Part shown: in pieces, positions 13,837 through 63,055 of the stretch | How the letters are laid out: every line of letters begins with the position of its first letter | How positions within the stretch are numbered: position 1 is the first letter of the stretch | From: Pseudisothecium myosuroides | Lineage: Eukaryota; Streptophyta; Bryopsida; Hypnales; Lembophyllaceae | DNA: 64,000 bases | Direction: 5' to 3' | NCBI GenBank assembly: GCA_951799445.1 | Contig: OX637287.1 | Location: 43,739,724-43,803,723, forward strand | Made by a program: the position numbers and the translations under genes | The notes under the pieces: model-generated | Databases searched by the model: none | What the model saw: the letters and a program-made list of their open reading frames with translations, nothing else | Told to the model about the DNA's origin: nothing

Positions 13837-15415
13837 TTAACCCCTAAATGTTTTTAACTATGTTTTCACCAAAACCGCTCCAAAACTACCATTTCTAATA
13901 CAAGTATCAAATTTTAGAAAAAAAACATTTTTGAACACATGTAACCATAGGATCTTGTAGTACACTAATTGAAGAAGATGTGGAAAAATTCAGAATTTTC
14001 CACGGTGTGGATTGCAAGATATTAGTGTTTGAATTGACAAAAATCCTTTTTTTGTCCTTGCAAAAAATTGGGCAGCTGCCCTTCACAAGGTCACATTTGT
14101 ATAAAAGAATGTCCAAAATGGTGGTTACTCTTTGGATTCATTCTTCAAGGCAAGTTGGCTACATGCTTGAAAAATTTCAGATCATTTGGAATTGTACAAC
14201 ATATAGGAAAAAAATAGTAAGCAGGAAGAGGTAGAGAATGACTCAAAATACTAAATTGTCAAGAATTTAATTATGGAATTGAAAAATGCCAATCCAACAG
14301 TTGTAATGTTGTAATAAACAATCTACAGCCTATTTTTTTATTTTTTTCAAAAATATTGAAAATTGAGTTAGATAAAGGACTTCAAAGTTTATTTTAGAGT
14401 AGAGATTCCATATTCCATAACTACCCTCAAACTAAAACTCCTCATAACTTTTGACTCATTAATCCAAATGGAATGATTCAAAGCTTTCCAAGTATACATA
14501 AATCTATAAAACCAATTTCAAGTTTTTATTTTTCAAAAAAGTGATTTTTAAAGAATTTTTTTGAGCTACCCGGACTGCCCGTTGAAAGCGAAAAATTACA
14601 TATCATGCAATAACTTTTACCCATGTAGTCAAAAGTTATGAAAATTGTTGGACCTTTAACCCCTAAATGCCCGAGGCACCAAAATCTGGTGTTTGCAAAA
14701 CTTTGAAGTCAAACAAAACTCAACCAAGTTGCTATTTTTAGTAGTTTAACATTTTGGAAAGTTCTTTGTGAAGTCTAGTTTTAGCATAAAAATCCGATCT
14801 TGAAAATAATCAATAGTGATTTTTCTATTGAAGATTTTGTGCAAGGGTACCCATTGCAATCTTGACTTCCCGTAGTGTTGAGAGCTCTTGGAAATGAGCC
14901 TCAATTACATTGGATCTTGGATCAAAAATCACATTCAAAATTCATTTAAAAAAACTATAGAGTAGATTTTAAGAAGCCATAAGTTGATTGGGGTTATACA
15001 TGTTAGGCTCTTTAACCTCATATTTTTTTGGTCACCATTTTTTTAGATTCGACTTGTGAAAAGAGGGTTGAAAGTTTTTTGTAGTTTTAACACCCTCATG
15101 GTCAAACATTATAATCTTTCACTCTATAAGTGATATTGTTGTGTTTTCTTTTCCTATGGGATCTCTAACATGTCTAGTTTGAATTCGTACGGTTACAATT
15201 TTTAAAAAATCGATACAACTTATCAAAATGTTGGCATTTTGTTCAATTTAGAGCAAATTCCAAGTCACTCAAAACAGGCCTTGGACATTTAGGGGTTAAG
15301 CTACTCCTTGGGCACATCTTGTGTGAAATTTCAAAGAAAAATAAAGAACTTTTCATTCGTAGTGCCCAAAATTGCTATGTTGCCAAAAAATGGTGTTTGG
15401 TCTTTTAGAGGTTAA
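13837..15415. mobile_element. TTAA-ended element, family B copy 1, interrupted by a nested copy
   Basis: Left end TTAACCCCTAAATG at 13837; right end TTTTAGAGGTTAA ending at 15415. The outer parts match, in reverse orientation, the 61145-63055 element. There, TTAACTCCTAAAGGACC and 'ATTTTTTGGCTAAATAGC' correspond to the right end here. The left part matches 43468-44051 ('ACCATAGGATCTTGTA', 'AATAACTTTT'). The 644-bp element at 14656-15299 sits inside at a TTAA. Without it the element is about 935 bp. There is no transposase ORF. Confidence 0.72.
14656..15299 (+). mobile_element. TTAA-ended element, family A copy 1 (nested)
   Basis: TTAACCCCTAAATGCCCG on the left; the right end is GGACATTTAGGGGTTAA. 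The terminal inverted repeat is about 17-20 bp including TTAA. The interior matches copy 2 at 38860-39494 in opposite orientation, with blocks 'TTGCTATTTTTAGTAGTTTA', 'AAGTCTAGTTTTAGCAT', 'AAGATTTTGTGCAA', 'TACCCATTGCAATCTTGACT' and 'CTCTTGGAAATGAGCCTCAA'. No coding capacity. Confidence 0.82.
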
Positions 15416-15971
15416 ATTCTAATATTTTATAGCAATATGAACTTTGCGCCTATCATCCTAGTTTGTTCATTTTCTAAATACCAAATGACAAGGTGATTTT
15501 GGTTTATACTATAATGTGATAAATTATTTTTTAAACTTTTGTGTTGTCCAAGTCATTTTAGTGTTGAAGATGATTCCAATAATAAAAATTAGTTCAAAAT
15601 GTTTAAAATATGATAGAGGATGATTTATGAAAGGATGTACAAAACTTCAAGTTTTATTCCCTATTTTCTTCATTATTTTCTTAAGAAATTCAAAGTAATT
15701 TCAAATTTTTCCAAAGAAGGTTGAAAATTTTACAATTTATAGAAAACATGTAATTCCATCTTTAAAAAATAAATATAAAATTTTCCTTCATATTTAGTTG
15801 GAAAATGGCAACAAATAGAATAAGGTAGAACTATCGAATACTGTCATTGACCTAATTTCGCCACCTACCAAACTTTCCCATTTGCATCAGTGGCCCATTC
15901 ATTATCGCAATCTTAGCAATCCTTTATCATGATGGCAATGCACTTAGAGAGCAAACACATCACTATATAAT

Positions 15972-16724
15972 TTAACCCTGTAAAGACGGGCCCACGACCA
16001 TTGATTTCACTTGAAGCTCTGTGCCCATCACTCTGTTTGTTGTCATTTTGCAATTAGATATGAATGAAAAATTTTGTATTCATTTTTGAAAGATGAAGTC
16101 ATATGTCCACTAAAAGTGGTGAAATTTCAAATTCTTTGGGAAAAATTTGAAATTACTATGAATTTTATTTTATGAATTTGAATAAACGATAAAAAAATTC
16201 ATATCAAATATAGAATGTACTTGAAAAATATGAAATCTTTACCATAGATGTATATTATATTGAAGAACATTATGTTGTAAACTAAAGTTACCTTGTCACT
16301 CTAAATTCAAAAAATTAACAAACCATGGTAATAGGCCCAAAGTTCATTTTGCTATAAATCATTGAAATGTATGAATTTATAATTTTTTAAAATTGGAGTA
16401 GAAACTAAACTTGATAAGCTTCATTTCATTAGTTGGACTCAAGTTCAAAAAACATCATTTTTATAGTTGAAATTTACATCAAGAGTAAATAGCAAGAAAT
16501 GACCAAAATGCACTACAAGGGTGATTTGTGGATTAAGCATCTTCTTCTTCTTTAGAGAAATCATAATACCATAATAAAGAAATTTGCAATACTATTCATT
16601 GAAAATATACTCAAGTACCTTCAACTAAAAAAAATTTGATGAAAAAATATTATTTTCCATCCTTTAGTATGAAGTGAAGCCATCCATAAGGTACTGAGTA
16701 TCTATGATAGCATTATAGGGTTAA
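15972..16724 (+). mobile_element. TTAA-ended element, family E copy 1
   Basis: Left end TTAACCCTGTAAAGACGG and right end TTATAGGGTTAA. The interior matches 19113-19794 in the same orientation: 'AAAGATGAAGTCATATGTC', 'CACTA(T/G)AGATGTATATTAT', 'ATTTACATCAAGAG.AAATAGCAAG', 'GGTGATC..TGGATT'. No transposase ORF. Confidence 0.7.
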
Positions 16725-19112
16725 CAAGGGTTTACCCATGCTTCAACAAGGGTCTATTTGCACTTTAATATTTTAGCTTTAAAAATCATAAGGATTTCAG
16801 TTTTTGTCAGAATGTCTTCATTCTTTTAGCAAATGACTTCTCTCAAACTTTTCAAATATGGAAGCTGACAAATAACTTCTCCAAGTACCTAGATAGCAAA
16901 TATGTGGAGTAATGGGCATTTGTACCTAAAATGGATAGTGAGACTAGAACTTAGTGGTGATGGACATATTTTAACACTTTGCCACACCTAAATTTGGGGC
17001 ATATTGAATGAACATTTCCACTTTTGGATCTTCCAAGGGTTGAACTCCATCCTTGGACTCCATCTATTAGGTTCCTCTCAAAGTTGGATTTCACATTGAA
17101 CAAGAGGTCACTTAATTTTCACATTCATTGGTGCATTCGAATATTCTTTCATTGCCAACAAGAACATATAAAAATTTCATCGGCTTAATATCAAGAATGG
17201 TGCGACCATGAGGCTTTGTACACACCAACCAAATAATAACCGTGTTGTGCAGACAGTGTGGTTGTAAATAGGATTTAGAAACTCAGATTTAGAAATCAAA
17301 TAAACCAAAGAGTCAATGCTATAGTTTCTATCCAAAGTGGTAGTTTTAGTGGTTCTTGGCTACTAATAAGATAATAGAAAAGTGGAAATGGAAAGCTCTT
17401 GTTCATGAATTTCCTCCTCGTCACCTCAAGCTGACATGGAGTCCCTTTGCATTTCCAAGTAGTCCAAAAACTCGTCGTCCCATACAAACTTGTCTATGAA
17501 TTCCTTGATGTAGACACTCTTGATTTGAATGACCTAATTCTAGCCTTCACTAAATGTTAGAATACAAAAACCGTTGGACTTTAATAACAACTCATCTCTT
17601 CCAAATCACTTTGCCGGTCTCCAAGTAGAAAGTCATGTGCAATACTGATGATTTGGCTAAATCTCTATCACCATTGCTCTTTACATGAGTATTGTTGTCT
17701 ATTGCCTCTTTAATGTAATCTACAAACTCTAATTATGAATAATTGCATAAGAAATTTATGCTTAGAGTTGAAAATTTTGATCTCAATATCATTTGGTAGT
17801 TTTCTTCAAAGTGAGATCTAAGGTAGAGACACCTATACCCAAACGGGGTTCCATATCCGAAAGATAGGGCACTAGTATTTTGGACCACGGAGGGTGTGAT
17901 TTGTAGGTAGACTTATCCAGATTCCATAGTTATAATAATTCCAATTTTAGAAATAAAATTACAAAAAATTTGCAATCCAAGTGATTGCAAGAAATACTTG
18001 TCCTTTTTTTTGTCCCCTTGACCTTGGACAGGTGGTTTTTTGCTTATAACTTTTGCATTATATATCCATTTTCTATGAAACTTGAAATGAAGGTACATGT
18101 GATAGTTGCAAATGTTGAATAATTTTTTGGATTAAAAAAAAATTATTCTACTATTCTTAAACAACCTTCAAGTGGATGTCTACCTTCGCCATTTTGAAGA
18201 TTTTTAGTACTATTTATAATCCAAAAAATGTGAATTTGAAGCTCAAAATTGGTATACTAGGACTTCTACTAAATTTACACAAGCCTACCAAGGATTTTTT
18301 GTAAATATTAAATTTTCCACCTTCCACATGTGCTCAAAGTACACTACCTTCGTGCAAGTGCAGAGAAACACAATTTTATTTTTCCAAAGGTGAAAATTGT
18401 TGAAAAAGAGCATCTATAAGTTAGAAAAAATGTCTTTTTTTTTTAAATTTAATTTTTTTTAATATTTTCTAAAAGTTAAATTCCAAAGTATTTATTTCTT
18501 GCATTTTTCAACACTCTTTGATTGTGCATAGCTTTTAGAGATAAATTTTTCTAGGTCTGAATTTTTGCACATATCATTTTTTTAATGCTTTAAAAATTAT
18601 CCATATTTTATTTCACTTTTTAGAAAATTATTCCAAAAGCCACAATACTTGATTACTATAGCCGTTTTGAGCCAAAATTGGCATGTGTTTCTTACAGCGA
18701 CCCAGTCTCCATATTTCCAATCCTTGTACAAAGGAAAAATATGCATCCCCTCATATTGCTCATCGTGTGCTCAAAAATTGCTTAGATGATCGGGTGTGCG
18801 GGTTGTTTCCACCTTATAGTTTGTGATCTCCCAATGAAGCACAGTCCTATCCATTGGTTATATTGTTTAATCTTGGATGCAAATAATCCTCTACCTTATT
18901 TTGTTCTCAATTCTTCTCCAACAAAAAGATAATCCCTGACCTAGAATGGTCTGTACTTGCTCAAACTAAAGATAATAAGGTCACTTTAGGAAATCATAAT
19001 AAATTATTGTAAACCCTCCAAAATACTTGTCTCATTGATCTATAGAAATAATTATTTTTCCTATTCATTGATATAATACCAATTTTTTTTGAAGTCTCAC
19101 CTATTCTGTACC
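16725..19112. other. AT-rich gene-free stretch
   Basis: No gene is recognised. A solitary end-like motif TAAGGTAGAGACACCTAT lies at about 17819 and resembles the ends of the TAAGGT-type elements, but no partner was found. Long A/T runs occur near 18430-18470. Confidence 0.5.
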
Positions 19113-19794
19113 TTAACCCTGTAAAGACAGGCCCATGACCATTGAGTTCAAGCCTCAACTGGCATCACTTTATTTGCTACCATTTTGCATCTACATAGGA
19201 ATGAAAATTTTTTAATTTATTTTTCAAAGATGAAGTCATATGTCTACTATAAGTTCTAAAAATTTCAAACTTTTTTGGAGTAATTTGAAATTATTGTGGA
19301 AAAAAAAAATATGATATTTTCACTATAGATGTATATTATGGTATAGAACATCATAGAATATACCAAAGCTATCGAATCACTCTAAAATTATAAATTCAAC
19401 AAACCACGGTTATAGGTTTAAAGTTCATATTGCTATAAAATATTAAAATTTATGAATTTTGAAAATTTCTAATTAGAATAGAAACTAAATTTTGATAAAT
19501 TTAATTTTAGTATTTGGACTCAAATTCATAAAATATCATTTTTAAGGTTGAAATTTACATCAAGAGAAAATAGCAAGAAATGGTCCAAATACACTATAAG
19601 GGTGATCAATGGATTGAACATCTTCTTCTTAAGAAAAGTCAATAGGACCATAACAAAGGATTTTGCAATACTATTTATTGAAAATGTACTCAAGTTCCCT
19701 CCAAATGAATAGATTGGATGAAAAAACATTTTCTTCCATCCTATAGTCTATGCCAAGTGAAGTCATTTTGGTCAGCAGAATCTCTAAGTGTTAA
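19113..19794 (+). mobile_element. TTAA-ended element, family E copy 2
   Basis: Left end TTAACCCTGTAAAGACAG. The right end has decayed to CTAAGTGTTAA. It is homologous along its length to 15972-16724. The two copies differ by many substitutions and small indels, indicating old insertions. Confidence 0.65.
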
Positions 19795-20958
19795 ATAAGT
19801 TTTTGTTTTTGTTTTTTTTTGGGTTGTTATGGTGAGATTTTCGGAACCGTGTATTCTCTGGTCTTGTTTTTGGTAGTATTGAAAGCTCTTTGCAAAGAAG
19901 GGCGTATGCGCTTTGTTTCATGGCGTTTGAACCTAAGGTCTAAAAGTTATTGAATTTTTGAAATTTTATGATTTAAAAAATTAATAATTACTTCCACTTA
20001 ATTTTGGATGTGGCAATGGCACAAAACACGCTAATAAATATTAATTGGATAAGATGCTCTTTTCAAAACATTCATAGGTAACCCAATGGATGGTTGAGCA
20101 TTTATGTGAATAAGAATAAATCTTTATACTATAATGGCTCTCACATGAAATTGCATGTCTCAAATTTGATTAATTGTCAATTTGACAAAACTAAAGATGT
20201 TTTTTCACACCATGAAGTTAGTCATAATTTTTTTAATCTACTTTTTGAATAAGTGAAAAAATTTAATTAATTGGAAAGAACAAGCCAATTATTGAATAAC
20301 AAAGCCAAAATGATTCTTGTTCTTGATTTGTTTTGTTTGGGAATGACATTTGTGTGTTTATAATATTATAATGATTTTTAGTTAAAGTAGAACTAGGTTC
20401 CGTTCACCCTCTATTTTTGTCAAATTGGTGTCTATTGAAAGTGCCAACAATATAACCTTGAACCATTCACTTTCAATGGCTTCCACTTTGCAAATCATGG
20501 CACTTTATAGTTGTAAAATAATAAGCTTCTAGTAAATGTTTTTGGGTCTTCTTTAAGGCTCTTCGAACATGCACCTATTGAACACTTTGAGTTTTGTTCA
20601 AGTTGACTTTGAAAATTTATAGAAAATACAAAAAAAATTCAAATTTTACAATTTAAATTAAATAATTAAAAGATTTTTATTTGTCTGCAAGGCAAAAACA
20701 ACATCAAATTGTGATTATGACTCCTACTTCTACACATGAGCTCAAATGAATGATAAAATTGTTCGTGAGGTCAAATTTGGCAAAGATGTATTGAAATTGA
20801 ATTTCCATGTCAGATTCATGAGGGTCCATGTCATCTCACACCAATGACAAGACAACATGTAGTACTTTTTTTACAAAAATGACTCATATTATGCCAAATG
20901 TGATCCTTTCATAGAATTGATGTTTTGTACCAATGTTAGGCAGATGCAGATTATATGC
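19795..20958. other. AT-rich gene-free stretch
   Basis: I see no gene, RNA gene or clear repeat boundary here. Confidence 0.5.
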
Positions 20959-27299: not shown

Positions 27300-29680
27300 T
27301 TAATGTGAAGATCGGAGAGTGTAGAGAGGTGTAGCTCGTGTACGTAAATCATGACGGACAAGGAGCGGCATTTTTAGTCGATGTAGTTACATGTATCATA
27401 TAATTTAATAGCCAGCCAGATTGGGATTGGGATTTTCCGTTTACCCATTCTGCTCACAGATATCCTATAGGTGTTATTCTTAGCACTCTGGTGCAAATTG
27501 GAAGAATCAAAGCTTGTGCTAATGTTGTTGGAATTTTGTCGAAGGCTTTGCCCTTAGAGCAATGACTTGCTTATTGAGTACCGCAGACTTCCTCACACTC
27601 ACATTCATTGTAGATGTTGCTTTTGTCAATGCGAGCCTTGCAAGCTTTTCAATCAGACGATTGCACTTGAAATTGCACTTGCCCTGCATGTATACCGCTT
27701 GAGAATATCCTCTTTATCCCTTCGCTTCCATATTTGTGGTGCACAACCTCAATTCATTTGCAATTATGGATTGATATTTTCAGCTTTTACCAGAAGTCTG
27801 TGATCTCCGAGGTTGTAGAGGGTGGAAATTGTAAGAATTTGTGAAAGAGTACAGGTCTTGTGCTGATTGTATGGTGGTTATCTTGACGTATTACCTCGAG
27901 CTCTAACGATGTATTCATACTGTATAAGCTTCCTGTTTTTTGGATGGTTGTGTGATGTAAGGTGTGGGCACCCCAAAACCGCCACCTTTTGCTACTGTGG
28001 CTAGTTAGTTACTATTATCAGACTAGTCAAATTTTCATATTTTCTTGTTGGGAAGTGAAACGGGTTTCATTTGGATACCGTATGCAAAAGTTATGAAAGG
28101 GCAAAGATTTTTTTGGTAGAGGTTTTAAAATCTTTTCTTCCACACAGGTACAACCACTATTGATTTTGGAGATGTACCAGAGTGATGATGGCAATTGTAG
28201 GTCAATGGCGCATTTTGAGGTGGCCACCTTAAGTTAGTGGTAGGAGAAGGAAGATTTGGAGTTGTGCTATTGATTTTGGAGATGTACTAGAGTGATGATG
28301 GCAATTATAGGTCAGTGGTGCATTTTGAGGTGGCCACCTTAAGTTAGTAGTAGGAAAAAGAAGATTTGGAGTTGTGCATAGGGATAGGGAATAAATGCTA
28401 ATTGATCCCTTGAGGAGCCTAAAGTGGTCACTCTAAGCATCTGATTTAGATTAACTTCAAATTGGTCCAAATTTAGAAATTCATGTAGAGTGGATGGATG
28501 TTAGAAATCTTGCTTTGTATTAAAATGGTGTACAAATTGCAACAATCCAAGTAGTGGAAGGTCTCCAAATACCATAATATTAACTAATAATACATCAATA
28601 ATATACTATTTTATTACGTAGTACAATGTACGATAATATATTGTAGTATATTAAATACGTACACCATTGGAGTTTGAATGTTTTGTTGTTTGAAGATCAT
28701 AAAATTGATGTTTAGCTATTAGAATTGACCTTCTAATATTGTAATAAGTACATGATGCTAGAGGCATTTATAAGCTAGCACCTTGTATAATATATAGATT
28801 ATAATTTTTCACTTTGACATTTAACAAATAAATTTAAGAAAAATTCAAACATATGCTTGCAGTTTATTCTTAGAAGGTCAAAATGTCTAGTTTTGCATTC
28901 AAATTTGCCTCATTGGAAAATAAAATTGCTTTCATCTTTGTGTTGTTGTGAACATGAATAGGTCTCTAACTAATGGACAACTATATGCCTTGCAATACAC
29001 AAAATTTGTTGCAAAGAGTATTGTTGGATGCACACCAAATTTGGTATACTGCACCACCACCAAGCACACTTTCCACTTTTTTACACTTGAAATTTTTATC
29101 TACACGTCCATATTTCCATAGAGAGCATTGATTTGAAAACAGATATTGAAATTTGTCTTTTTTAACAACCCAACGGGTTAAGTCTATCATAGCTTCTATA
29201 TTGGCATATTCTCCCATAGCTTCTATATATTGTGCACACAAGCACTTGAGAGAAGTCTTCAAAGAAATGATTCCTTATGAGATGGTTACGTACCTCAAAT
29301 CCCTCCTCCAGAAGTTTAATTTCATTGCAAGGTGGCAATGTCCAGCTTGAGTTGGCAAGTATCATACTAACAAATATGACCAATCAATATGCCCACAAGG
29401 TACTTTGCAATTCAATACCAACCCGTTTATTGTGTTTGCATCAATCAGTCCAAGGGAAATGGGCGTACCTAGAAAGCCTCTAAATTGACGCCGCCAAAAT
29501 CACACCTTTATTTGGGATAAAAGGCTTCATGTACAGTACATGCTCTTCAACCTTGAACATTTCATTCTCGTCTCTTTCCAAAGAAACGATTCTAGTGCTT
29601 GGACGTATGCACACTATGTAAGAGTTGAAACATCTTTTGCAGGTTCCTAAATTGCCAGTCCTGGAAACATCTGCACGAGA
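27300..29680. other. Intergenic region between convergent genes
   Basis: Contains the TAAGGTG-ended repeat at 27958-28341. At 28981-29262 a minus-strand open frame of 93 residues (including 'KCKKVESVLGGGAVYQIW') is not recognised. It might be a transposon remnant, but no domain can be named. Otherwise nothing is recognised. Confidence 0.5.
27958..28341. mobile_element. TAAGGTG-ended MITE with duplicated right end
   Basis: The left end is TAAGGTGTGGGCACCCCAAAA. The right end, reversed, is TAAGGTGGCCACCTCAAAA, at 28231 and again at 28341 because a 110-bp segment starting CTATTGATTTTGGAGATGTA is tandemly duplicated (28157 and 28267). The element at 36704-36981 is homologous, sharing 'CCATATTTTCTTGTTGG'-type blocks, 'TTGATTTTGGAGATGTAC' and the end. 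Confidence 0.65.
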
Positions 29681-38859: not shown

Positions 38860-39494
38860 TTAACCCCTAAATGCCCAAGGCCTCTTGGAATTTGCTCTAA
38901 ATTGAACAAAAAGCCAACATTTTGATAAGTTGAATCAATTTTTTGGAATTGTAACCGTACAAATTCAAACTAGACATGTTAGAGATCACATAGGAAAAAA
39001 ATATATACATATATATCATTTAAGGATTGAAAGATTATAATGTTTGATCATCAGGGAGTCAAGACTACGAAAATCTTTGAGCTCTCTTTTTGCATGTCAA
39101 ATCTAAAAAGTTTAAGACCAAAAAAATATAAGGTTGAAGGGCCTAACAAATATAACTCCAATCAATTTATGACTTTTCAAAATCTACTTTACAATTTTTT
39201 TAAATGAATTTCTAGTGTGAATTTTTCTCCAAGATCTAGTGTATTTGAGGCTCATTTCCAAGAGCCCTCAACACTACAAAAAGTCAAGATTGCAATGGGT
39301 ACCTTTGCACAAAATCTTGAATAGAAAAATCATAATCATTCATTTTCAAAATCGGATTTTTGATGCTAAAACTAGACTTCAAAAAGAATCTTTCAAAAAT
39401 GTAAACTACTAAAAATAGCAATTTGGTAAGGTTTTATTTAACTTCAATGTTTCTATGACACCACATTTGGATGCCTTTGGCATTTGGGGGTTAA
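38860..39494 (-). mobile_element. TTAA-ended element, family A copy 2, in the PPR pseudogene
   Basis: A 635-bp element bounded by TTAACCCCTAAATGCCCA and GCATTTGGGGGTTAA. It is homologous to 14656-15299 in opposite orientation. Removing the element and one TTAA joins GCT-TTA-AAG-TGG, the codons of the ALKWG motif usual at this place in such PPR proteins. TTAA is therefore the duplicated target. Confidence 0.88.
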
Positions 39495-43467: not shown

Positions 43468-44051
43468 TTAACCCCTGTAGTCCCAAGGCCATTTTTCTAC
43501 CAAAAACCACTCAAAACTGCCATTTCCATTGCATTCATCTATGAAAGCAGAAAAAACATTTTTTTTAGAATCTAACCATAGAATCTTGTACTTCACTTGT
43601 CTGAGATCATGTGGTAAAAATTTCATCAAATTTGACTGTACAGATTGGAAGATATTAGCATTCAAAGTTGGGAAAAAAGTTTTTTCCAAGAACTACTTAG
43701 ATTGCCCAAAAAACAAGATTGTCCATAACTTTCTCATCACTAGTCCAAATAGAATGAATCAAAGTTTACATGTAAACAAAAATATAATATTTTAGAAAAA
43801 AATTTTTTTTTAATTATTTTGACTTTTTGTGGTTTTTGGGGGGCTGCCCGCCGACCTCCATATTTGGCTTTTTGTGCAATAACTTTTGCTTCTGGGCACC
43901 GATTGAAATAAAAATTATATTCCCAAGAAGCTTATGTGTTTTCTTAGCTTTATAAAAAGTTTTAGAAAATTATGATGAATATTGAAACCGTGTGAGCCTA
44001 CCCGAACTTGCATTTTGGCCCCCGTAGGGCCAATGGGACTTTAGGGGTTAA
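43468..44051 (+). mobile_element. TTAA-ended element, family B copy 2
   Basis: Left end TTAACCCCTGTAGTCCCAAG; the right end reversed is TTAACCCCTAAAGTCCCA. It is 584 bp. Interior blocks ('AACCATAGAATCTTGTA', 'AGTCCAAATAGAATGA', 'GCAATAACTTTTGC', 'GGCTGCCCG') match 13837-15415 in the same orientation. No transposase ORF. Confidence 0.78.
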
Positions 44052-45757: not shown

Positions 45758-49428
<3,671 letters not shown>

Positions 49429-49870: not shown

Positions 49871-50259
49871 TTAACCCTTTCCATGCCTGAATATTTTTTG
49901 ATTTTTTGCATATTTTTGCTAATATTTTTGTACAAATTTATTTTTTAACTTGATTTCATGAACTTGATTCCAATACTGGCTCTCCATGTTATTTTTCAGT
50001 ACAATCTACAAGTGCCTTTGATTGTGGAAAGTTTTCAAGAAACTTCAAAGTTTCATTGAAATTTTTTTATAACTAATAGTGTGTCATAGAAGCAACAAAG
50101 TTGTAAAGTGCTAGTGCAATTAAAGAACATTTAAATTTCTTAAAAACTTTCAAAACTTTTTACTTTAGTAAACAACAATGAATCAAGTTAGTTTACTGTA
50201 TTAATAATATACTTCTATATCTTGCGGATGTTTAATGCTTGTGGTCACAAAAGGGTTCA
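49871..50259 (+). mobile_element. TTAA-ended element, family F copy 1 (decayed)
   Basis: Left end TTAACCCTTTCCATGCCTGA; the right end has decayed to AAAAGGGTTCAA. Subterminal 'GCATATTTTTGCTAATATTTTTGTACAAA' type sequence matches 51125-51360 in the same orientation. Confidence 0.55.
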
Positions 50260-51065: not shown

Positions 51066-51124
51066 CCTTCTTTCTTCATTGCTCAAGCCCAACAAAACTT
51101 TTCTCGGTTACATTCAAAAGTGTA

Positions 51125-51360
51125 TTAACCCCTAAACGCCTCAATCCTTTTTTGAATTTACTAGAATTTGCACATTTTTGCTTATATCTTTGTACAAAAA
51201 TATCATTTACTAGAATTTCATGAATGTGGTTATAAGAAAGGTTATCTTTTCTAAATTCATGTATTACATTGGATGAATGAGAAGTTGGTTGGACTACAGA
51301 GGGCTTTGAAGCCCTCTGTTCATCGTCCAGAAAATGAACTTCGGAGCGCTTCAGGGTTAA
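51125..51360 (+). mobile_element. TTAA-ended element, family F copy 2
   Basis: A 236-bp element from TTAACCCCTAAACGCCTC to GGAGCGCTTCAGGGTTAA, with an internal palindrome (AGAGGGCTTTGAAGCCCTCT near 51298). It is the smallest intact TTAA-ended copy in the window. Confidence 0.72.
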
Positions 51361-51843: not shown

Positions 51844-53367
51844 ATGGCAGCTTTGGCAGCGACGCAATCTGGTGTTGTGGTGAAGGGCGTTCCCTTGGGA
51901 GGTCTGCGGCTGTTGGGTGGGAAGCAGCAGCAGCATGGAGCGATGCGCGTGGCGACGAGGAAGGGGCAGTGCACAATTGCTGCAAGCACCAACGGGCTCA
52001 CGTACAAGGACGCGGGCGTGGACATCGACGCGGGCACGGAGCTCGTGCGCCGAATTGCGAAGATGACGCCCGGAATTGGAGGCTTCGGGGGCTTGTTCCC
52101 CTTCGGCGACTCGTACTTGGTGGCGGGCACGGATGGGGTCGGCACGAAGCTGAAGCTGGCGTTCGACATGGACCAGCACGACACCATCGGGATCGACTTG
52201 GTGGCGATGAGCGTGAACGACATTATCACCAGCGGCGCCAAGCCCCTGTTCTTCCTGGACTACTTCGCCACCAGCCGCTTGGACGTCAACCAGGCGGAGC
52301 AGGTGATCAAGGGCATCGTGGACGGGTGCAAGCAGTCGGAGTGCGCGCTCCTCGGCGGCGAGACGGCGGAAATGCCAGGATTCTACGCGCCCGGCGAGTA
52401 CGACTTGAGCGGGTTCGCGGTGGGGAGTGTGAAGAAGGAGGCGCTCGTGGATGGGAAAAAAATTGACGTGGGCGATGTGCTGCTGGGGCTGCCTTCCAGC
52501 GGGGTGCACTCGAATGGATTCTCGCTGGTGCGCAAAGTGCTGGCCAAGTCGGGGGCGTCGCTACAGGACCCATTGCCCGGGGCCGGCGTTTCCATCGGGG
52601 AGGCTCTGCTTGCGCCCACGACGATCTATGTCAAGCAGGTGATCGCCGTTTTCTTTTTCGCTTCGAATTCCAAAAGTGGATTCTTTTGAAACGGGGTTAC
52701 TCAATTCACAACCTTCTTTGCTTGTCACATCTTTTTCTTGCTTTTTTGGCCTCTAGTGTCCTATGGAAATTATGAGCATACAGTGCATGTTCTGTGGAGA
52801 GAATGTACCAGAGGTGTTCGTGAGCAGCACTCATACCTCTTTTTAATCGTCATCTAGTCGATGCTGCTTTTAAAGAGAGTCATGTAGCTTTTCTGTTTTT
52901 TTGCTGTACTCAAATCTTCTGGCATCAGGAAATGTTCTTTCTTCGCTGTGCTTTTTCTTTGAACTCCTGGGTTTCATTTCGGTTCATTACTGAAGAAGGA
53001 GAATTATTTGCTGATGAGTTGTGTATTCCCCATACAGGTACTGGAGCTCTTGGCCAAGTTTGAGATTAAGGGCATTGCTCACATCACCGGTGGCGGTTTT
53101 ACGGACAACATCCCTCGCGTGTTCCCCAAGGGCCTCGGTGTGAACGTGAATGTAGGTTCCTGGGAAGTGCTACCCATCTTCAAATGGTTGCAAGAGCAGG
53201 GTGGTGTGGAGGATGCGGAAATGCGGCGGACATTCAACATGGGCATTGGAATGGTGCTCATCGTTAGCAAGGACGTTGCAGAGGCCCTCGTCTCTGAGAA
53301 CACGTCTTATGGCAAGGTGTATCGCTTGGGGGACATCGTGAAGGGTGAAGGCGTCACTTTTCAGTAG
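51844..53367 (+). CDS. PUR5: Phosphoribosylformylglycinamidine cyclo-ligase (AIR synthetase)
   Basis: Fifth step of purine synthesis: ATP-dependent ring closure of FGAM to aminoimidazole ribonucleotide (EC 6.3.3.1), in plants an organelle (plastid) enzyme. Two exons, 51844-52638 and 53038-53367 (TAG), with a GT-AG intron in phase 0; 374 residues. The ATG at 51844 follows an in-frame GTG that I did not use. Residues 1-50 are Ala/Gly/Gln-rich with basic residues and no acids, as a transit peptide. PurM signatures follow: [33 protein letters not shown] (about 93-106), [45 protein letters not shown] and, in exon 2, [17 protein letters not shown]. Exon 1 is much GC-richer than its surroundings. 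A broken copy of exon 1 lies at 63378-63962. Confidence 0.96.
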
Positions 53368-54671
53368 TTCATGAAGTTGCTAAACCACCAAATTCAATTC
53401 AGGTGAGGCTTCTACCTCAGACAATTGTGGTAGGGTTTGCTTTGATACGGTAGGGTTATGTTGCACAACCAATAATTTCAAGGCGGTATTCATTATCTTT
53501 TTGTACTTGGTCTGTAAAAAACTGTGCGCAGATAGTCAAAAGTGGCCACTTCCATATCGACTGGAGTTTTAGTTATATCATTTAGAAACCTTCATTAAGG
53601 ATGCAAATGCATGTATTAATAGACAGAAGAAATTGTTTGAAATTGTTCTACATATTTGAATGGTAGAAATCTGTTTTGAAAGCTATCAGCTTCCAAAGTG
53701 GACTTTCTATGTTTAGCTCGGGCCCTTAAGAGTTACAGGTCTACTGTGATGATGACGTTGACTAACTAACTCATTGCAATGCAGTACAGGGTATTAACTA
53801 AAACTTACAACGGCCACCATCAACCACGACGTCGTCAGCTTGTAGTGAAAGTAGCGCTGTCGCTCATAGTTTTTTATTTTTTTTATTTTATTTTTAAACA
53901 AATTTCATTGCAAAGAAAAGAGTACAAACCCACCAGCCACAAGGGCCTGGCGGGGACAGTCACAACGACAGACTTGCTCATAGGTTTTGAAAGCTATGGA
54001 TCGAGCTCTTCGATGCAGTCATCATCCTTCCATCATGTGAGGTGATACTAGTAGTCTCCTCGTTGCATTGCATTATTGCTGGCGAATTCAGATTTCAGAG
54101 TTTAGGTTCAGTGTCAGCATCCACCTTGTCTACTGTGGTTTGCTGTCAATATTACATTGGTGAACACGTATACAAGTCATTTAGGGTTAGCTTCAGTGCT
54201 CTACACATGATATGTTGATCAGAGTCATCACAATGGAATGATCACACGTTCTATTAGATCTGCACATATTTTTTCCACCTTGTTCTTCCCATTGAATTCG
54301 CTTGAACATGTTCAATCCCAATTCTGAATGGGTTGTTTAATGAAGATACCAAAATATTGAGGGAGGGAACCTGTTTCAACTATTTATCTTGGTGGTTTTT
54401 AGGGTTTAGGGTTTAGGGTTTAGGAGATTTTAAATAATAAACTAGGTAGTTTGGCGTGAAGGCGTGTATATGCATTTTTACACGATGCTCTAATGGTGTT
54501 TGTTGTGTCTGTGATCGAATGGTGGTCAGCTGCTTCTTTATGTTGGAAGAAATTGGCGATAATGTAATAACTTGTGAAACTAGGTTTGGAGAATCTTGTT
54601 GCATTAAATAGAATACTGCTCTGCAGTTGGTTTTTGAATGAACTGTGACGTATGCTGCATGTAATTTTTCA
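53368..54671. other. PurM downstream region
   Basis: No gene is recognised. It contains a short interstitial telomere-type repeat at 54398-54424 and otherwise unremarkable AT-rich DNA. Confidence 0.55.
54398..54424 (+). repeat. Interstitial plant telomere-type repeat
   Basis: Three full TTTAGGG units plus a partial fourth, isolated in intergenic DNA. This is the canonical plant telomere heptamer. Confidence 0.9.
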
Positions 54672-56703
54672 GATTGCCGCTGGACTCCAGGGTAGAGATG
54701 GATGAGGGCTGGCGGTATACTCTGGTAGAGAATGACACCAATACTGAATTCATTATCGAATATGATATCACGCGCACACTCAGATCCTCGAGACCTGCTG
54801 GAACTCTTCGCTCCTAGGGAGACCGGGCTTCCCCTTGTCAAGTTTTTGACTGGATCGGTGCAGCTGGACCCCATTTCTTCCAAACTGCGACTTACGTGAG
54901 AACGTACAGATCACCATGTTCAGAGATGTGGCCAACACTTACTCTTGCCGAATGATTCCAAGGGCGGCGCTCAATAATTTCAAGCTTAACTACCAGCGCA
55001 GCTACAAGCCTGAAAGCATTTGGGTTGTCGTGAAGGATCACTTCCGGAGGATGGAGGACCTCCAGAGAAAAGTGACAACCAATGCACATAGTTATTCAAG
55101 AAGTTTCAGGAAGGAGTGGAACAAGTGGAATGAGCGGACCTAGCATTCCAAACCGTAGTGGATGCGGACTTGGAAGCCTCGTTTTAGGACATCAACGACA
55201 GGTCATTTCAGAATCCGTTTGGTCTATTAAGGATACAGCTCACAGATCCGTCGGAGGAGTTTATGGTCTGTACGTTGCTGCGTTCTATGGCTGAAAGGAA
55301 TGGCATTGCTACGTTCCTGTGGTGAACTTTCTTACAACAAGGCTGCTTTTGGCTTGTCTTCACTACCACCTTCTGTGCCAACTTTTTCAAAATTTGCTTT
55401 AGCAACCCTTGAGCTGAACTGGATCGTGGATTTCCTTTTTTGTAAACTGAAGACAAATCCGAAGTTGACAGTTGAAAATGGTGCAAGGAAAGGTGTAGGC
55501 TCGTATCCTCAAATCGTACGAATCGTTTGGATACTATGGAAGACAAGAATTTGGAAGCTAATGTTCGTCGACAAAAGGCTGATCGGGAAGCTCTGCAGGC
55601 ATCTCTACACCAGAAGCTCAGCAGATCTCATGGCAACTCTTCTTTCAACTTCTTGAATCCTATAACTTCGTGCGTGTCGAGCGGGAATACAACCAATCAA
55701 AACGAACTTGAAGCTCTCTGGCGGAAGAGATTGCAACCAAGCTCCTGTGCTCCTGGGTCCTACTCATCTCTAGATGCTTTTGTCCTTGAAAATCCAGAAA
55801 CCAGTTTTCTGGAGCTTTCAGTTGGAAGTTCCAGAACCGGAGCTTCTAAATGCATCCAGAAGTGCAAGTGGTTGGGGGAAACGGTGGCACTTTCAACGAT
55901 GTCGAATGTGTTAAATTTTTTTGCAAAAGCAGAAACTGGATTCTTAGCGAGAGTGCAACATCCCAATGTTGTGGAGTGGATGGGGTATGCATTTAAGGAG
56001 GATGTACGGGACCTTAATCATTATCGGGACTGTTACCTCGTGACTGAGCACATGGAGTCTGACTTGCATGAGTTGATTACCAAACAACTGACAATCGCTG
56101 ATGGAACAATTTCCACGACTCGAACTCCCCCTCGTTTTCTGGTAGCAGTGGACATTGCTTTTCAACTTGTGGAAACCATGATTCATGTGCACAAGTGTCG
56201 AGTAATACACCGGGATCTCAAACCGAAAAATGTTCTTGCAAGCCCAAAGTACTTCTCAGCCAGCTCATAGCGAGGCGCCGATTTTCTATACCATCAAACT
56301 AATAGATTTTGGATCCTCCAAAATTGGAGATGAAGGCTCCCATTTTCACACCAGGAAGCAAAGAACGACCATGTACATGGCTCCGAAGGTTTGGGAGTCA
56401 GAGGACAGCTACTCATGGTCCGCAGATGTATACAGCTTTAGACTGACATGTTACGAGATCTTCCACGAGAGGCTTCCTTGGGAGGGTGACATGACATTGA
56501 CGTTTGCGAACATTTAGAACGTCATGCGTGGAAAGATTATGTTTCCTTTTGCGTATTCAGAAGAATTGAAGGAACTTATTGAGAAGCGTTGTGCTCAGAA
56601 TCCCTCTAACCGACCGAGTTTTGAAGTCATCCGCAAAGCTTTGTGGCGGTTGAAATTTCAACCATTGCGGAACTTTTTGCCCAACTCTTCCTGGGTTCTT
56701 AGG
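54672..56703 (+). pseudogene. Protein kinase pseudogene
   Basis: A kinase-like reading with breaks. At 55527-56260 one frame carries LARVQHPNVVEWMGYAF, YLVTEHMESDLHELI, and the catalytic-loop VIHRDLKPKN, then runs into a stop. The following part continues in another frame from about 56230: IKLIDFGSSKIGD (DFG loop), TTMYMAPKVW, WSADVYSF, and after an in-frame TAG at 56515-56517, ELIEKRCAQNPSNRPSFE. The residues expected at VAIK and APE are altered (VALSTM; APK). Upstream, 54672-55310 holds short protein-like stretches in shifting frames (MFRDVANTYSCRMIP; FQNPFGLLRI; PSEEFMVCTLLRSMAERNG), probably the decayed N-terminal part. One intron or a sequencing error could explain a single break, but not all of them. 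Confidence 0.75.
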
Positions 56704-56793
56704 TAACTTTGGCAAATGAAAATTCACTAGTTGGCATCCCAAGATGGTGCAAACCATGAGTGATAATGTGGACTTGCAGAGGGAGGTTTACCC

Positions 56794-56900
56794 CATGAAC
56801 CCTTGAACGCCCAAATCCTTCTTTTAAGTTTTACAGATTTTAGTTTATATCTTGGTACAAACATGTTTTTTAACTCCGTTTCAACAAACTGGTCATACAG
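56794..56900 (+). mobile_element. Solo left end of a TTAA-type element, family F
   Basis: TGAACCCTTGAACGCCCAAA, then 'TTTTAAGTTTTACAGATTTTAGTTTATATCTTGGTACAAA' type sequence parallels the left third of 51125-51360 (TTTATATC..GTACAAA). No right end was found. Confidence 0.4.
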
Positions 56901-57874
56901 GAAGCTCCGATTGAAGTAGGGCAAATTCCCAATATTCAGCGACTGAAGTCGTCATATGCTAGCTAGAATCCTCCTGTTTCAGCTTCACACGCAAATGATA
57001 CAATAAATACTTCATTGATTGCTCTTGGGTTCCACAACTACTTTCAATGGTTCTCTCTAGTGCTAATGTTATACCTCCTGACAAAAAACTGCAGATCTTC
57101 AAGCTGTCTCACCACAAACTCGAAAACCTGGTGACCACCGGCCTCATTGTCCCTCTTAAAGATGTCAGAAGCTCTCAAAGGGGCTCGACAGACTCCACCA
57201 CTAAAACGCTAACAAGGTTATCATGAAAAGATAAGCTTACGACTAGGGCATCTGCAGATAGTTCGGAGGTGCTGCAACGTAGTTCGAGGATATGCTGTAA
57301 GTTACAATTGTACAGTGCATCACACCAAAAGGAGCTCTTCAGAAACTTAGTGAAAAATGCAGAGAAGTACATGCATTGCGACATTCTTTCAAGAGGTTCG
57401 CAAAACCGACTTTTCTTCACAACTTACTGATATAGTAAGCCGTATTGGGCAGCCGCTAATTTCATCTCCGTGTGCAAACTGTTCATGTCTGGTCACAGAT
57501 TTGGGCAATTGCAATCTCTCAGTGTTGAATGAGCCCAAGATAACCCACCGCGAGTAGTCACGATGGTTGTTCTTCGCCCTTCAGTTTCTTCACCTCGGTT
57601 TTCCCTGAATACATTCATCGTACTATAGTAAACTTGCCATTCATCGCACAGACAAAATTCAAACCCTTCTCCACATAAAAATAGAGATTTGCATGTTTTG
57701 AAATTTGGCATGATTATTAAATATCATGTTAAGATTCATCTTCAAAAAACAAAATGTAATAAGATTTCTTCCTAGAAATTTTATTGCAATTTGAAGGTGA
57801 TGAAGCTCAAATCTAGTTAAAAATTCCTTGCAACCAATCACCGCACAATGTGCGGTCATTGGACGGTGTTACAA

Positions 57875-58010
57875 AATTTTGTTTCCATCACAATTGAATT
57901 GGTAGTTCAATTTGTGCGGTTAGTGTTTGGTCATTGGAGGGGTGGGTGTACGGTTACTGTTTGGTCATTGGGAGTTGTTGTTGTGCGGTGTTTGGATGTA
58001 TGCGGTGAAT
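57875..58010 (+). repeat. Short local repeat GTGCGGT...TTTGGTCATTGG
   Basis: The words 'GTGCGGT', 'TTTGGTCATTGG' and 'CGGTTA(G/C)TGTTTGGTC' recur between 57850 and 58010 with roughly 25-50 bp spacing. Low-complexity duplication only. Confidence 0.4.
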
Positions 58011-58449
58011 GGCTGGTTTATTCTAACTTACGTTGTGATGAAAGTAGACATGATGGATTGATTGGACGGTATCAATTTACTTGGAGCTCGGGTATTGGTA
58101 ATCTCCATCAACGCTTGACAACAGTCTGCATGTATTCTTGGTACATACTAATGCCATATCTACTATACTAAATAGGGATATTAAGGGAACAAAAAAATGA
58201 AAGGGATTTATTGTGGAAAACTGTAGATGTTTGAAACATAATATACAACCCCCCAACACTTCAATAACTATTGATGTACATCAAAGGTAGATATTTATAT
58301 AGTGTAAAATGTCAATTAATTAGTATAGGTCTCCTTTAAAACCCTATTTAGTGTAGAAAGCCCAACTATAAGAATGGAAAAGCACATCTCCAAGGCCTTG
58401 AAATCCTAAATTGAGGAATATGTTGGAAAAAATCCATTCTAAAGAGTAC

Positions 58450-59424
58450 TTAGCCCCTCAAAGCCCAAGGCCTTTTTGGATTCAAAAACATCATTGCTTT
58501 TGAAGTGTTATAGATCTAAATGTCACTAAGTTATAGAGATCTCAACTATACAATCTTGTAGTGTATGTATTGAATCAAATTTGGAGTCATTTGGCCACAT
58601 AGATTGCAAGATTATAATGTTTTAGTGTCGAAAAAGGATGTTGAAATTTTCCTAGCAACACATTTAGAGGTGAAATTTGATTTCTAAACCTACTCAAATG
58701 AAAAAATTTAAAACTATAAAGTGATTCAAAACCAACATACAAACACATTGATGAAAGAAAATATCATTCAATTAACTCATTGTGTTTGCAAAATGGCTTT
58801 AAAATGTAAAAAAATAGCAAGAAAAGTTGCAAAAAACACATGTCAGGCTGAAACTCCTTCTACTAAAATGCTTCTTAGTCACTCATAACTTTTTCGGTTG
58901 ATATGAAATTTTATCCACACAAACTAAAATAGTGTATGCAAAGTTTTCAATTTTTTTATATTGGAAACAAACACTTTATGAAGAAAAAACAAGCCCCCAA
59001 AGTTCAGTGTAATCCACAAATGTCGGGATATTAAACTTTGAATTGCTTCCAAACATTCAAAAGAATTTGGATTGGCATGAAAATTTTACCGCAATAACTA
59101 GACTTCAAGGGCATCATAATCCCACAAATTTTATTGAAAAAAAACATTAGATGAAGGAGATTCAACTATACAAGCTCCAAAGTTGCAACCATCCAATGCA
59201 ATTTGGTGAACTCAAATTGAACATGTGAATTTTGATTGGCTTTCAAAAAATCAGTGTATTTTGGATTGATCTGAAAATTTTACCACACAAACTAGAAAAG
59301 AGAACGCAAATTTTTCAACAAGTTTTATCTAATTTGAACATTATATGCAAAAGTTACAATACTTTGAATTGAACTTGAAACTATGTGAAGACACTTTTGG
59401 TCCCCTTGGGCTGTGAGGGGTTAA
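58450..59424 (+). mobile_element. TTAA-ended element, family B/C copy
   Basis: Left end TTAGCCCCTCAAAGCCCAAG (TTAA changed to TTAG); the right end reversed is TTAACCCCTCACAGCCCAAG, an inverted repeat of about 20 bp. It is 975 bp. The interior carries several 'ACTCATAACTTTTT.GGTTGATATGAAATTTTA' style blocks like the other B copies. No transposase ORF. Confidence 0.72.
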
Positions 59425-61144
59425 CCCTGGAAGGATGCAACCTTGGTGACAGGTACTTACTCAAAAATGATTTAATTTTTGGACCAATAGGTGCATTCTT
59501 TGTTTCCATAGTAAGAAAAAAAATTGTCCATCAAACACTTTGTCCTCAACGTCATTTCAAGATTAAAGTAACTACATCTAATTGTGTCTAAATAAACAAT
59601 TGAACATTTGAGCAATGTTTCTACTATTAAATTTTTTAATTTATTTTATATCTTGTTGGAAGTCAAAAGACCATTCAAAATTTTCTTCTAGTGCATTTTT
59701 TGAACACCATATGAATATACTAAGAATTTTAAAGTGTTGAAAATAGGTGTATCCAAAATCAACCCTAGGTTCTCATGAATGGAGACAATACATTTTAGGC
59801 AAGAATTTTAGGGATTACTTTGAGAAAGGAGTCACTTTGATTAAGTACAGTTACTTGAAGTCCTAGAAAAAATATTTAAGGTTAGGGAGAATTTCCTTGA
59901 TGGCCATTCTTATAATACTCCTCATTTTTTATCATCAAAGTTCATTGCGCATGCTCAAGAGTTGCTATTTGCAATCAATTTGAACAGAAAGATTGCAATG
60001 ATTCAACCAAAATTGGCCATCATAGGAAGTAATTGGATAAATGTTTGAAGAATTGAGTTGGATGATCTCAAAAGACTTGGTATGAGTGCAAAACGTGGAA
60101 TTCAATGATTGTGTCAAAGAACAAGACCTAAAAATGTATTGAGAACTTTTCAGCAGCAATTTACGTTTATTTCTATCCATCCCCTATGGTAGGAGGTCCA
60201 TAAACTATTTATTAAGCCTACCTACGTCAATAACCTCATCAATGACAGTAATAGATATTTCAAGGAGCATGTCACTCATTCCTAGGTAGTAAATACATTT
60301 AGAACCAGGTTGATTTCAGGAACTCCCTACCTTAATGCCACTTCTTGAGGTTTAACATTTGTGTGGATGTCAATTTTTAATATTAAGAAAACAAAAATTT
60401 CTTTCTCCAACTTGATTGGTTATGATATTTGAGGCTTGCAAAAGCTTAGGCCTTAATTATAGTGGGGATCTAGCTAAGCCAATTAATAATTTCACAAAGC
60501 TCTCTACAACAAATCAAGTGTTTTATGAGTATAATTGGAGATGACTAGCGACCGCTTGCAGTCATATTTTTGGAGGCCAATACCTTGGAAAAAATATAAC
60601 TTCAAATACAACCACCAATCATATTTTGGCCTTGTACTTCATAGACGTATAATATACGCCCATTCAAAACACCAAAGTACTTCATAGGTAACGATAGGAA
60701 ATATTTCTAGGAAATGTCTAGTCATATTTGCTAGTCACAATTTTGCTGTAGTCATATTTTGCAATCACATTTCAATGGTAGTCACCTTTTTTCTTTTGGA
60801 GCATTCCAAGAAAAATAGAGGCAGTCCAAAAAAATATAGACAAGCTATTTTTTAGGATTTTAAAACCTAGTTACTATTTTTTTAGGATTTTGAACCCCTA
60901 GCTACTACTTTTCTAGGGTTTTAAAATCCTAGCTGCCGCTTCTTTGAACTTTTCTTCCTTGTCTTTTATTGACTTCTAGCTCTTATTCTTTATTGCTTCT
61001 TGTTGCTTTTTGTTGCATCTTAATTTTTGCATTTTGTTGCTTATATAGTTCTTGCTTCTTGTTTTTCCTTTTTGCATCTTAACACTTCCTTTTTATTGGT
61101 TCTTAAATCTTATTTTTTAATTTATTCTTGTTATATTTTAGCTC
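59425..61144. other. Repeat P copy and pyrimidine-rich DNA
   Basis: Repeat P lies at 59580-59870. From 60870 there are short TTTTAGGATTTTAAAACC iterations, then a T/C-rich tract (CTTCTTGTTGCTTTTTGTTGC, 60950-61135) that resumes on the far side of the large element at 63060-63250. No gene. Confidence 0.5.
59580..59870 (+). repeat. Dispersed repeat P, copy at 59.6 kb
   Basis: Ordered blocks 'TGTGTCTAAATAA', 'ATCTTGTTGGA', 'TTTTAAAGTGTTGAAAATAG', 'GTATCCAAAATCAACCCTAGG', 'CATTTTAGGCAAGAATTTTAG', as in 7850-8110 and 8465-8690. Confidence 0.55.
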
Positions 61145-61215
61145 TTAACTCCTAAAGGACCAGACTGCATTTTTTGGCTAAATAGCAATTTTGGGCAGGA
61201 CGGTGTAAATGACAA

Positions 61216-61461
61216 CGGTGCTAGTATGTGAGCCCAAGAATGCGAGCTTGTGAGCATTGAGCCTACAATATAGGTACCTATAATATAGATACCAAACACT
61301 ATAGAAGGTGTATGTATCATAAACACCTATAATATGGGTATTTGTAACATATATGCCCTATAATCATAGACGGTTCCTATAGTATATACACCTATAACAT
61401 AGGTGTGTAGTATTCTAGGCTCATAAGCTCACACTTTTATGCTCACACAATAGCAACCCTC
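61216..61461. mobile_element. Mutator-like MITE flanked by a 13-bp direct repeat
   Basis: A 246-bp segment with inverted ends (CGGTGCTAGTATGTGAGC; the right end reversed is GAGGGTTGCTATTGTGTGAGC) and a palindromic interior (CCTATAATATAG, CACCTATAACATAGGTG). It is flanked by perfect GTGTAAATGACAA at 61203-61215 and 61462-61474. The long duplication suggests a Mutator-type insertion, although 13 bp is longer than the usual 8-11. Confidence 0.65.
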
Positions 61462-62127
61462 GTGTAAATGACAATCTTTACATTCTAGGCCGAAATTTTA
61501 TTAGAAGGTGTGGACAAAGAATACCTTTCCTATACACTAAATTTCATGGCATTTCGAAATATGAGTCAAAAGTTATGGCCTAATATGTTATTTTTTTTCT
61601 TAAATGAGCAGTTCGGGCAAATAAAAAAAATCATTTTTTTCATAAAGAAAAATTTGAAATTGATTTTTTAGATTTATATATACGTGTAAACCTTTGAATC
61701 ATTCCAATTTGATCAATGAGATGAAAGTTATGAGGAATTTTAGTTTGTGGGTAGTTATGGATTTCCTACTTTAAAATAAACTTTGAAATTGTTTATTTAA
61801 CTCAATTTTCAATATTTTTGAAAATAAAATAAAATCATAGGATGTAGATTGTTGATTATAACATTACAATTATTGGAATTGGCAATTTTCAATTCCATAA
61901 CTAAATTCTTAACTATTTTGTATATTGAATCATTTCCTATATCTTTCTACTTATTATTTTTTCCTATACTAAATGTTGTACAATTTCAAATGATCTGAAA
62001 ATTTTCAAGCATGTAACCAACTTGCCGTGAAGATTGAATTCAAAAGAGTATTATTATTTTGGACATTTTTTCATACAAATGTGAGCTTGTAAAGTGCAAC
62101 TGCCCTGTTTTTTGCAAGTCCAAAAAA

Positions 62128-62857
62128 GGGTGAATGCAAGAAACACTTGCCAATTTTGTTGCGTTTTTACAATACTCATGATTTTTCAACTAGAGTACTA
62201 TAGAATTAGAAAAATGATTTGTAAAAAACAAAAAAAATATAGCTAACATATACACCTTTAAGATGAAGGTAACCACCAAAAGAAATGCATAGAAAAATTC
62301 TTTAAGCTAGAAAACTAGAAAAGTGCCAAATCTCAAGAAAATGGATACTTTGATGTATAAATTAGTTAAAAATAGGAAACAAAAATAAATACAAAAAGTG
62401 AAAATTGGACATTTGTAACAACTCTATGGAGATGGTCATTCATCCAAAAAAACTCCAAAATAATATTTTATATGTTTCAAAATGCAAGCAGAAAGAAGCT
62501 CTCTTTGTGGACATCTTCACAATACAAAATTAACTATTTTTAGAATTCCTTTCTTGCATAGATACAAGTCTACTAAAAAACCATGCCCTCTAAATTTCAG
62601 CTCAAAATTCGTTTTTTTTATACTAAATAGTACTAAAACCCTCCAAATTGGCAAGTGTGACATAAAATTGGGGGCTATTTTCGGACAGTAAACTATTTTT
62701 GAAAATTACCAAAAAATTAGGTAAGGTGTATAATATTCATGAGTACCTTGCATATAAATCTTGAGTCATTTGGAGCTAGAACGCAAAAGTTATAACCAAA
62801 AAACAAATCAGAATGCAAGGTGTGACGCAAAAGTACAGGTGTTTCTTGCATTCATCC
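62128..62857. mobile_element. Nested inverted-repeat element (GGRTGAATGCAAGAAACAC ends)
   Basis: The left end GGGTGAATGCAAGAAACACTTG is mirrored at the right by CAGGTGTTTCTTGCATTCATCC. The flanks 'CAAAAAA' and 'AAAAATGATT' align with one uninterrupted place in the 13837-15415 copy (GGACAAAAAAAGGATTTTTG), so this is an insertion. A partial relative starts at about 43066. Confidence 0.55.
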
Positions 62858-63055
62858 AAAAATGATTTCAATGAATTTGAAAGCTCATATCTTACAATCC
62901 ACGCCATGGAAATTTCTAACATGTTTTTCACATGTTTTTAATTCAACATACTATAAGATCCCATGGTTACATATTTCTAAATTTTTTTTCCAAAATTTGG
63001 TACTTGTGGCATTTTTGGAGCATTTTTGGTGAAAATATAGTCATGGAACTTTAGG

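Follow-up and report, generated by a model that had tools for sequence, protein, structure and literature searches.

TTAA-bounded short elements in the moss Pseudisothecium myosuroides are probably non-autonomous members of a large piggyBac population

A 64,000-nucleotide stretch of the genome of the moss Pseudisothecium myosuroides (GenBank assembly GCA_951799445.1, contig OX637287.1, positions 43,739,724 to 43,803,723; hereafter the window) holds a series of short segments bounded by the tetranucleotide TTAA. The segments are a confirmed observation, and very probably they are short non-autonomous piggyBac elements, pasted into TTAA by transposases encoded elsewhere in the genome. For two of the interior groups, A and E, this predicted membership is shown by ends shared with transposase-encoding copies, and for groups B, C, F and G it is likely. 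Judged from its sequence, the genome has a piggyBac population that is very large, diverse and recently active, with an extra conserved domain in the long members, and piggyBac is likely to be a major and recent force in this land plant.

Ten segments had been described in an earlier note on this DNA as beginning TTAACCC(C) and ending (G)GGGTTAA or a decayed form of it. All were re-read at sequence level and all ten exist. Both termini are of TTAACC type at 13837-15415 (A1), 14656-15299 (B1), 15972-16724 (C1), 38860-39494 (B2), 43468-44051 (E) and 51125-51360 (F2), and the other four have one decayed end each: the right end at 19113-19794 (TTAACACTT), the right end at 49871-50259 (TGAACCC), the left end at 58450-59424 (TTAGCCCC) and the far end of 61145-63055 (A2), from which TTAACC is gone. 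Unnoticed until the present analysis were the position of B1 inside A1, the position of A1 inside a third, minus-strand C copy (C3) and the left end of another F-type element (F3) at 56796. The elements are as follows, with coordinates in the window.

13837..15415, plus strand: A1, putative non-autonomous piggyBac element; 1,579 bp including the nested B1; TTAA-bounded; matches transposase loci L041 and L053.
14656..15299, plus strand: B1, putative non-autonomous TTAA element within A1; 644 bp; ends alike at 15 of 16 bases.
13513..15819, minus strand: C3, older C-type element split by A1; resembles C1 and C2 to either side of A1; TTAACCC terminus at 13513, 5' end (near 15819) not recognisable.
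15972..16724, plus strand: C1, C-type TTAA element; TTAACCC at both ends; 72% identical to C2.
19113..19794, plus strand: C2, C-type element with a decayed right end; similarity to C1 stops at 19766.
38860..39494, plus strand: B2, B-type element reversed relative to B1; 84% identical to B1 over 651 columns; both ends TTAACCCC.
43468..44051, plus strand: E, element with A-related ends; 84.5% identity between its left 218 bp and the right end of L042, a transposase element.
49871..50259, plus strand: F1, F-type element with right end TGAACCC, from end reading and self-comparison.
51125..51360, plus strand: F2, F-type element of 236 bp; matches genome locus L007 at 85% identity over 238 bp.
56796..56904, plus strand: F3, left end (TGAA) of a further F-type element, right end not found; 68-71% identical to F1 and F2.
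58450..59424, plus strand: G, element whose ends (left TTAG, right TTAA) agree at 14 of 16 bases, from end comparison.
61145..63055, minus strand: A2, A-type element with a decayed terminus at 63055; aligns with A1 over 611 columns at 80% identity; both ends of L042 have matches among its pieces.

As a set, the window elements are TTAA-bounded with ends CCCCTAAA..TTTAGGGG, well over shuffled controls. Nine TTAA-anchored ends match the motif at 12 or more of 17 inner bases, against a mean of 0.08 and a maximum of 1 in 100 dinucleotide shuffles. A scoring of ends blind to TTAA used the left end of B2 as the yardstick (the B2 row hence matches by construction) and required 14 or more matches in 19 inner bases; ten ends were retained, and the preceding bases were TTAA in eight, TGAA in one and TTAG in one. 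A looser 12-mer with two mismatches, which is a weaker test, gave 20 matches in the window where 9.3 were expected, a number reached in none of 100 shuffles. The earlier note saw no transposase reading frame inside the segments; among stop-to-stop frames of at least 70 amino acids, none longer than 104 amino acids falls wholly within an element, and one of 126 amino acids overlaps F2. No match came from Rfam for the window or from viral contigs for the exact 20-mer. Of the proposed interior groups A, B/C/D, E and F, which were described as sharing their ends only, E is not entirely separate: it has sequence in common with A (68% over 222 bp). In the self-comparison of the window the F family (at 49871, 51125 and 56796) has about 116 bp in common, and G (58450-59424) matched itself only.

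To check its reading, the earlier note had proposed a genome-wide search for the 20-bp ends in pairs, for consistent TTAA flanks and for a longer copy encoding DDE_Tnp_1_7, and the outcomes favoured it. In the window's own assembly (387,930,709 bases in 222 contigs, to which all genome searches refer), the 20-bp end with up to two mismatches occurs 38,478 times (19,184 forward and 19,294 reverse), against 16 occurrences (7 and 9) of a reversed-pattern control. The exact inner end occurs 9,035 times (4,550 and 4,485; control 0), and TTAA stands directly before 8,016 of these (4,031 and 3,985; 88.7%). Eight ends were sampled genome-wide; a TTAA-anchored partner lies within 1.5 kb of seven, which delimits elements of 374-932 bp. 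Relatives of B1 number 4,239 first-look genome candidates; 40 were scored, B1 included, and all 40 are 97-100% identical over at least positions 2-644, so the B1 family would have spread recently. At loci L004 and L008 (1501-2247 in each) the elements are 747 bp long and near-palindromes of one A-type end, and positions 579-823 of A1 match both halves of L004 in opposite orientations.

The genome also encodes the expected transposase in abundance. A profile search with PF13843 (DDE_Tnp_1_7) gave 898 first-look candidates, and all 116 that were scored lie above the Pfam cut-off (E 1.7e-83 to 5.1e-70), about 73 of them without an internal stop by a hand count of the table; the same domain was found in none of 14 control genomes. 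The MULE domain PF10551 gave 57 candidates and 41 matches in the same genome, a rough yardstick since counts across models are not strictly comparable. By phmmer the protein matches piggyBat (9c0f, E 1.7e-28) and piggyBac (6x67, E 2.5e-20), and in L041 the catalytic aspartates line up with theirs; regular expressions recovered the motifs of the D-D-D triad in 24, 27 and 24 of 30 loci. A C-terminal cysteine-rich domain is a feature of the piggyBac superfamily; a cysteine-rich tail is seen in the transposase translations, and PF13842 was unreported at E 0.1 in the four transposases scanned.

The long transposase-encoding elements measure 5,370-6,159 bp, and their transposase frames reach 1,091 amino acids stop to stop. 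Copies that encode DDE_Tnp_1_7 and have ends of the window type include L039, L041, L042 and L044; end motifs flank the transposase on both sides in L041, L042, L048 and L049 and were seen on one side only in L046 and L047. L039 and L040 are 99.945% identical over 5,417 bp and L044 and L045 are 99.98% identical over 5,633 bp, each pair being bounded by TTAACCCC..GGGGTTAA and set in unrelated flanks. Two long pairs with more than 99.9% identity at unrelated sites point to recent movement. An identical 1,116-bp transposase domain is present in five loci on five contigs. At L044:392-1321 a complete 930-bp A-type element adjoins the long element, and the two have one TTAA in common, as though either had inserted into the target duplication of the other.

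A1 links the window to these long copies. The right end of L041 aligns with the left 448 bp of A1 (68.5% over 454 bp, E 3e-61) and the left end of L041 with the right 114 bp of A1 (68% over 120 bp, E 2e-11), and the L041 transposase lies between those two ends; this comparison suggests that short copies are long ones with the middle deleted. A1 also matches transposase locus L053 on one side (75% over 458 bp), and the terminal bases of B, E, F2 and G are common with PF13843-encoding copies. In the proposed mechanism, the transposase would recognise the terminal bases common to long and short elements, excise the elements and insert them at TTAA in the manner of the piggyBac transposases that have been studied, while the short copies would have arisen from long ones by loss of the middle and then multiplied. 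The earlier suggestion of non-autonomous piggyBac-like elements is supported, A and E having the ends of transposase-encoding copies; correct as to identity, it was too modest as to extent, given 898 transposase candidates and 38,478 ends. Its alternative, a plant lineage that converged on the TTAA rule, is unneeded.

Nesting of the window elements gives two paralogous empty sites, which fit what a 4-bp TTAA duplication would predict. C3 without A1 and without one TTAA gives an ungapped alignment of 150 columns with C1 (100 preceding the TTAA and 46 following it), 109 of them identical. Likewise, A1 without B1 and one TTAA aligns to A2 ungapped over 64 columns (37 before and 23 after), of which 39 are identical. 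A2 holds two further inserts, at about 61203-61538 and 62128-62854. The former is a stretch without an A1 counterpart and has a self-palindrome inside it at 61219-61455. The latter, with a relative at 17982-18703, has 16-bp inverted ends TGAATGCAAGAAACAC and a flanking repeat of roughly 9 bp around TTTTTGGA; a repeat of that length means that it is not a TTAA element, and it is perhaps Mutator-like.

Several observations weigh against the piggyBac account. Genome-wide, 1,019 of the 9,035 exact inner ends are not preceded by TTAA, which is taken as decay; the sampled end L005 has no partner within 1.5 kb, and two of the ten best window ends have the one-base variants TGAA and TTAG in place of TTAA. 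The triad expressions missed one or other motif in part of the 30 loci, and several frames are broken by stops. The empty sites compare paralogues and not alleles, the second is identical at only 39 of 64 columns, alignment of C3 with C2 puts a one-base gap at the join, and the uninterrupted relatives have GTAT and GAAA where TTAA is expected. Loci L009-L053 yielded no transposase-encoding partner of groups B, C, F and G; their membership therefore rests on the shared ends and target. As candidate partners, the matches of C to L015, L046 and L049 were rejected as weak and outside the transposase elements, and those of F and G among L009-L053 as short and repeat-like.

The missing partners leave a little room for another TTAA superfamily, Kolobok or Sola3, to have made the short elements, with the piggyBac genes being unrelated; this is very unlikely. 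Sola3 uses a TTAA target; a literature search returned no statement on that target. Kolobok resembles the present elements in its TTAA duplications, but its ends follow the form RR..YY (PMC9587614), against CC..GG here, and Kolobok was rejected on that ground. The moss elements have a PF13843 transposase, the ends of copies encoding it recur in A and E, and B, E, F2 and G share their terminal bases with such copies. An even smaller chance is given to a 2-bp TA duplication of the Tc1/mariner kind with a preference for TTAA. Being palindromic, the tetranucleotide reads alike on both strands; the flanks by themselves therefore do not reveal how many bases were duplicated, and T-TA-A and TTAA duplications look alike in sequence. 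Such an element was nevertheless set aside: its neighbouring bases should be free, whereas the outer T and A are as conserved as the inner bases (full TTAA in 88.7% of ends), and the transposase in the matching long copies is of piggyBac and not of mariner type.

Contamination, with piggyBac genes from an animal living on the plant, is an equally improbable explanation. piggyBac is best known from animals, and there is no named plant protein among the 75 relatives listed; both facts would favour an animal source. Against it, the listed transposase matches lie on all of contigs C1-C11 (16.9-55 Mb), and the window elements lie between plant genes. These genes encode a laccase, a mitochondrial carrier, a plastid-type sigma factor and AIR synthase ('laccase' and 'plastid-type' being the analysts' labels); the best match of the carrier is 95% identical, its best named match is from Ceratodon purpureus (75% over 98%) and Physcomitrium follows at 66%. 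A quick maximum-likelihood tree was built from 99 rows, comprising the loci with a longest frame above 85% of the domain and the 75 listed relatives. In it, 24 transposases from this genome sit in a 68-row clade with a support of 100 in the Shimodaira-Hasegawa-like approximate likelihood ratio test, the other 44 rows of which have no organism label, and seven labelled animal proteins fall outside that clade. The deeper order of the tree is unsure, with long branches.

Upstream of the transposase, a second conserved coding domain of about 90 residues is present in seven of nine distinct long elements (L039, L041, L044, L046, L047, L048 and L049, with stops in L046 and L048), a count that omits the near-duplicates L040, L043 and L045; among the nine it was not seen in L042 and L050. 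L052 and L053 have it as well, whereas in L051 it was not found. Invariant positions are L-P, P, R, F, L-G and W-P. Comparison of L041, L052 and L053 in frame gave nonsynonymous divergence (dN) of 0.21-0.27 and synonymous divergence (dS) of 0.69-2.7, the latter partly saturated, and in the other two frames dN exceeded dS in five of six comparisons; by this measure the domain is under purifying selection. Two copies gave nothing above the cut-off in Pfam, and in a large protein database two unnamed proteins are the only relatives among the matches listed. AlphaFold2 predicts an all-helical fold from a seven-row alignment (mean predicted local distance difference test score 76.6, predicted template modelling score 0.65), and fold searches in PDB and BFVD gave no match at E of 0.001 or below. 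By eye, similarity in L041, L052 and L053 stops at a donor-like GT and the transposase frame of L052 and L053 starts at AG; in L053 the reading phases, also read by eye, misfit a simple two-exon join of the domain and the transposase. The domain may be part of the transposase, as one of its exons, or a separate helper protein, and one guess is that it acts either as a helper or as the N-terminal binding part of the transposase. Animal piggyBac elements are not known to have such an extra domain. A broader proposal, slightly less likely than not, is that mosses have a deep, diversified and recently active piggyBac branch of their own, a two-part system in which the transposase is joined by this previously undescribed helical domain, and that this branch, in place of the textbook plant superfamilies, is the main cut-and-paste transposon of the present moss.

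The moss elements are like the rest of the piggyBac superfamily (Trichoplusia ni piggyBac, Myotis piggyBat) in the TTAA target, the CCC-type ends and a DDE_Tnp_1_7 domain with a D-D-D triad. They are unlike known piggyBac elements in their land-plant host, the conserved upstream domain, the tens of thousands of ends and the frames of up to 1,091 amino acids. The first bases of piggyBac ends are usually CCC/GGG, with CAC in many bees, and T. ni piggyBac has 2,472 bp and 594 amino acids (PMC10140906), against 5.4-6.2 kb for the long moss elements. The short ones share small size, lack of coding capacity, inverted ends and target duplication with the miniature inverted-repeat transposable elements (MITEs) of the established plant superfamilies, and differ from these in the TTAA target and the piggyBac ends. 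Five superfamilies were recognised in plants by 2008 (PMC2528002), and a survey of 207 plant genomes sorted MITEs into five superfamilies and Micron (PMC12550479), a scheme that would misfile or miss elements of the present kind. The occurrence of piggyBac in a plant has precedents: it has been listed for all groups studied, land plants included (PMC4438587), identified in plants (PMC10140906) and named among plant superfamilies (PMC10794571). In P. patens, DNA elements of Mariner type are expressed (PMC7466625). The available excerpts of PMC10619864, PMC8634313 and PMC9247546 hold nothing on moss piggyBac, and no paper on a native moss piggyBac was found in a literature search with thin coverage of subscription journals and without preprints. 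With hundreds of transposase candidates and near-identical copies, the entry and spread of piggyBac in plants becomes testable. The moss could also supply TTAA transposases native to a plant; up to now it is the animal piggyBac that has been put to use in rice, and at the date of that report it was untried in P. patens (PMC5505980).

The window contains further repeats. Fold-back hairpins at 11104-11373 and 63599-63822 have arms of 126 and 112 bp (90% and 95% identical) and CACTA-type ends CACTATAAGAAACCC and CACTACAAGATAAAG, and are probably CACTA-type MITEs. Another fold-back pair, at 8853-9099, has 98-bp arms that are 88% identical and separated by 51 nucleotides. Direct repeats spaced at about 260-300 bp and a 110-bp tandem duplication lie at 4715-5351 and 28157-28376, and a short telomere-like CCCTAAA run is found on the minus strand at 54398-54423, internal to the chromosome. 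At the window edge, 63861-63959 is a second, partial copy of the AIR synthase gene, 88% identical to 52090-52188.

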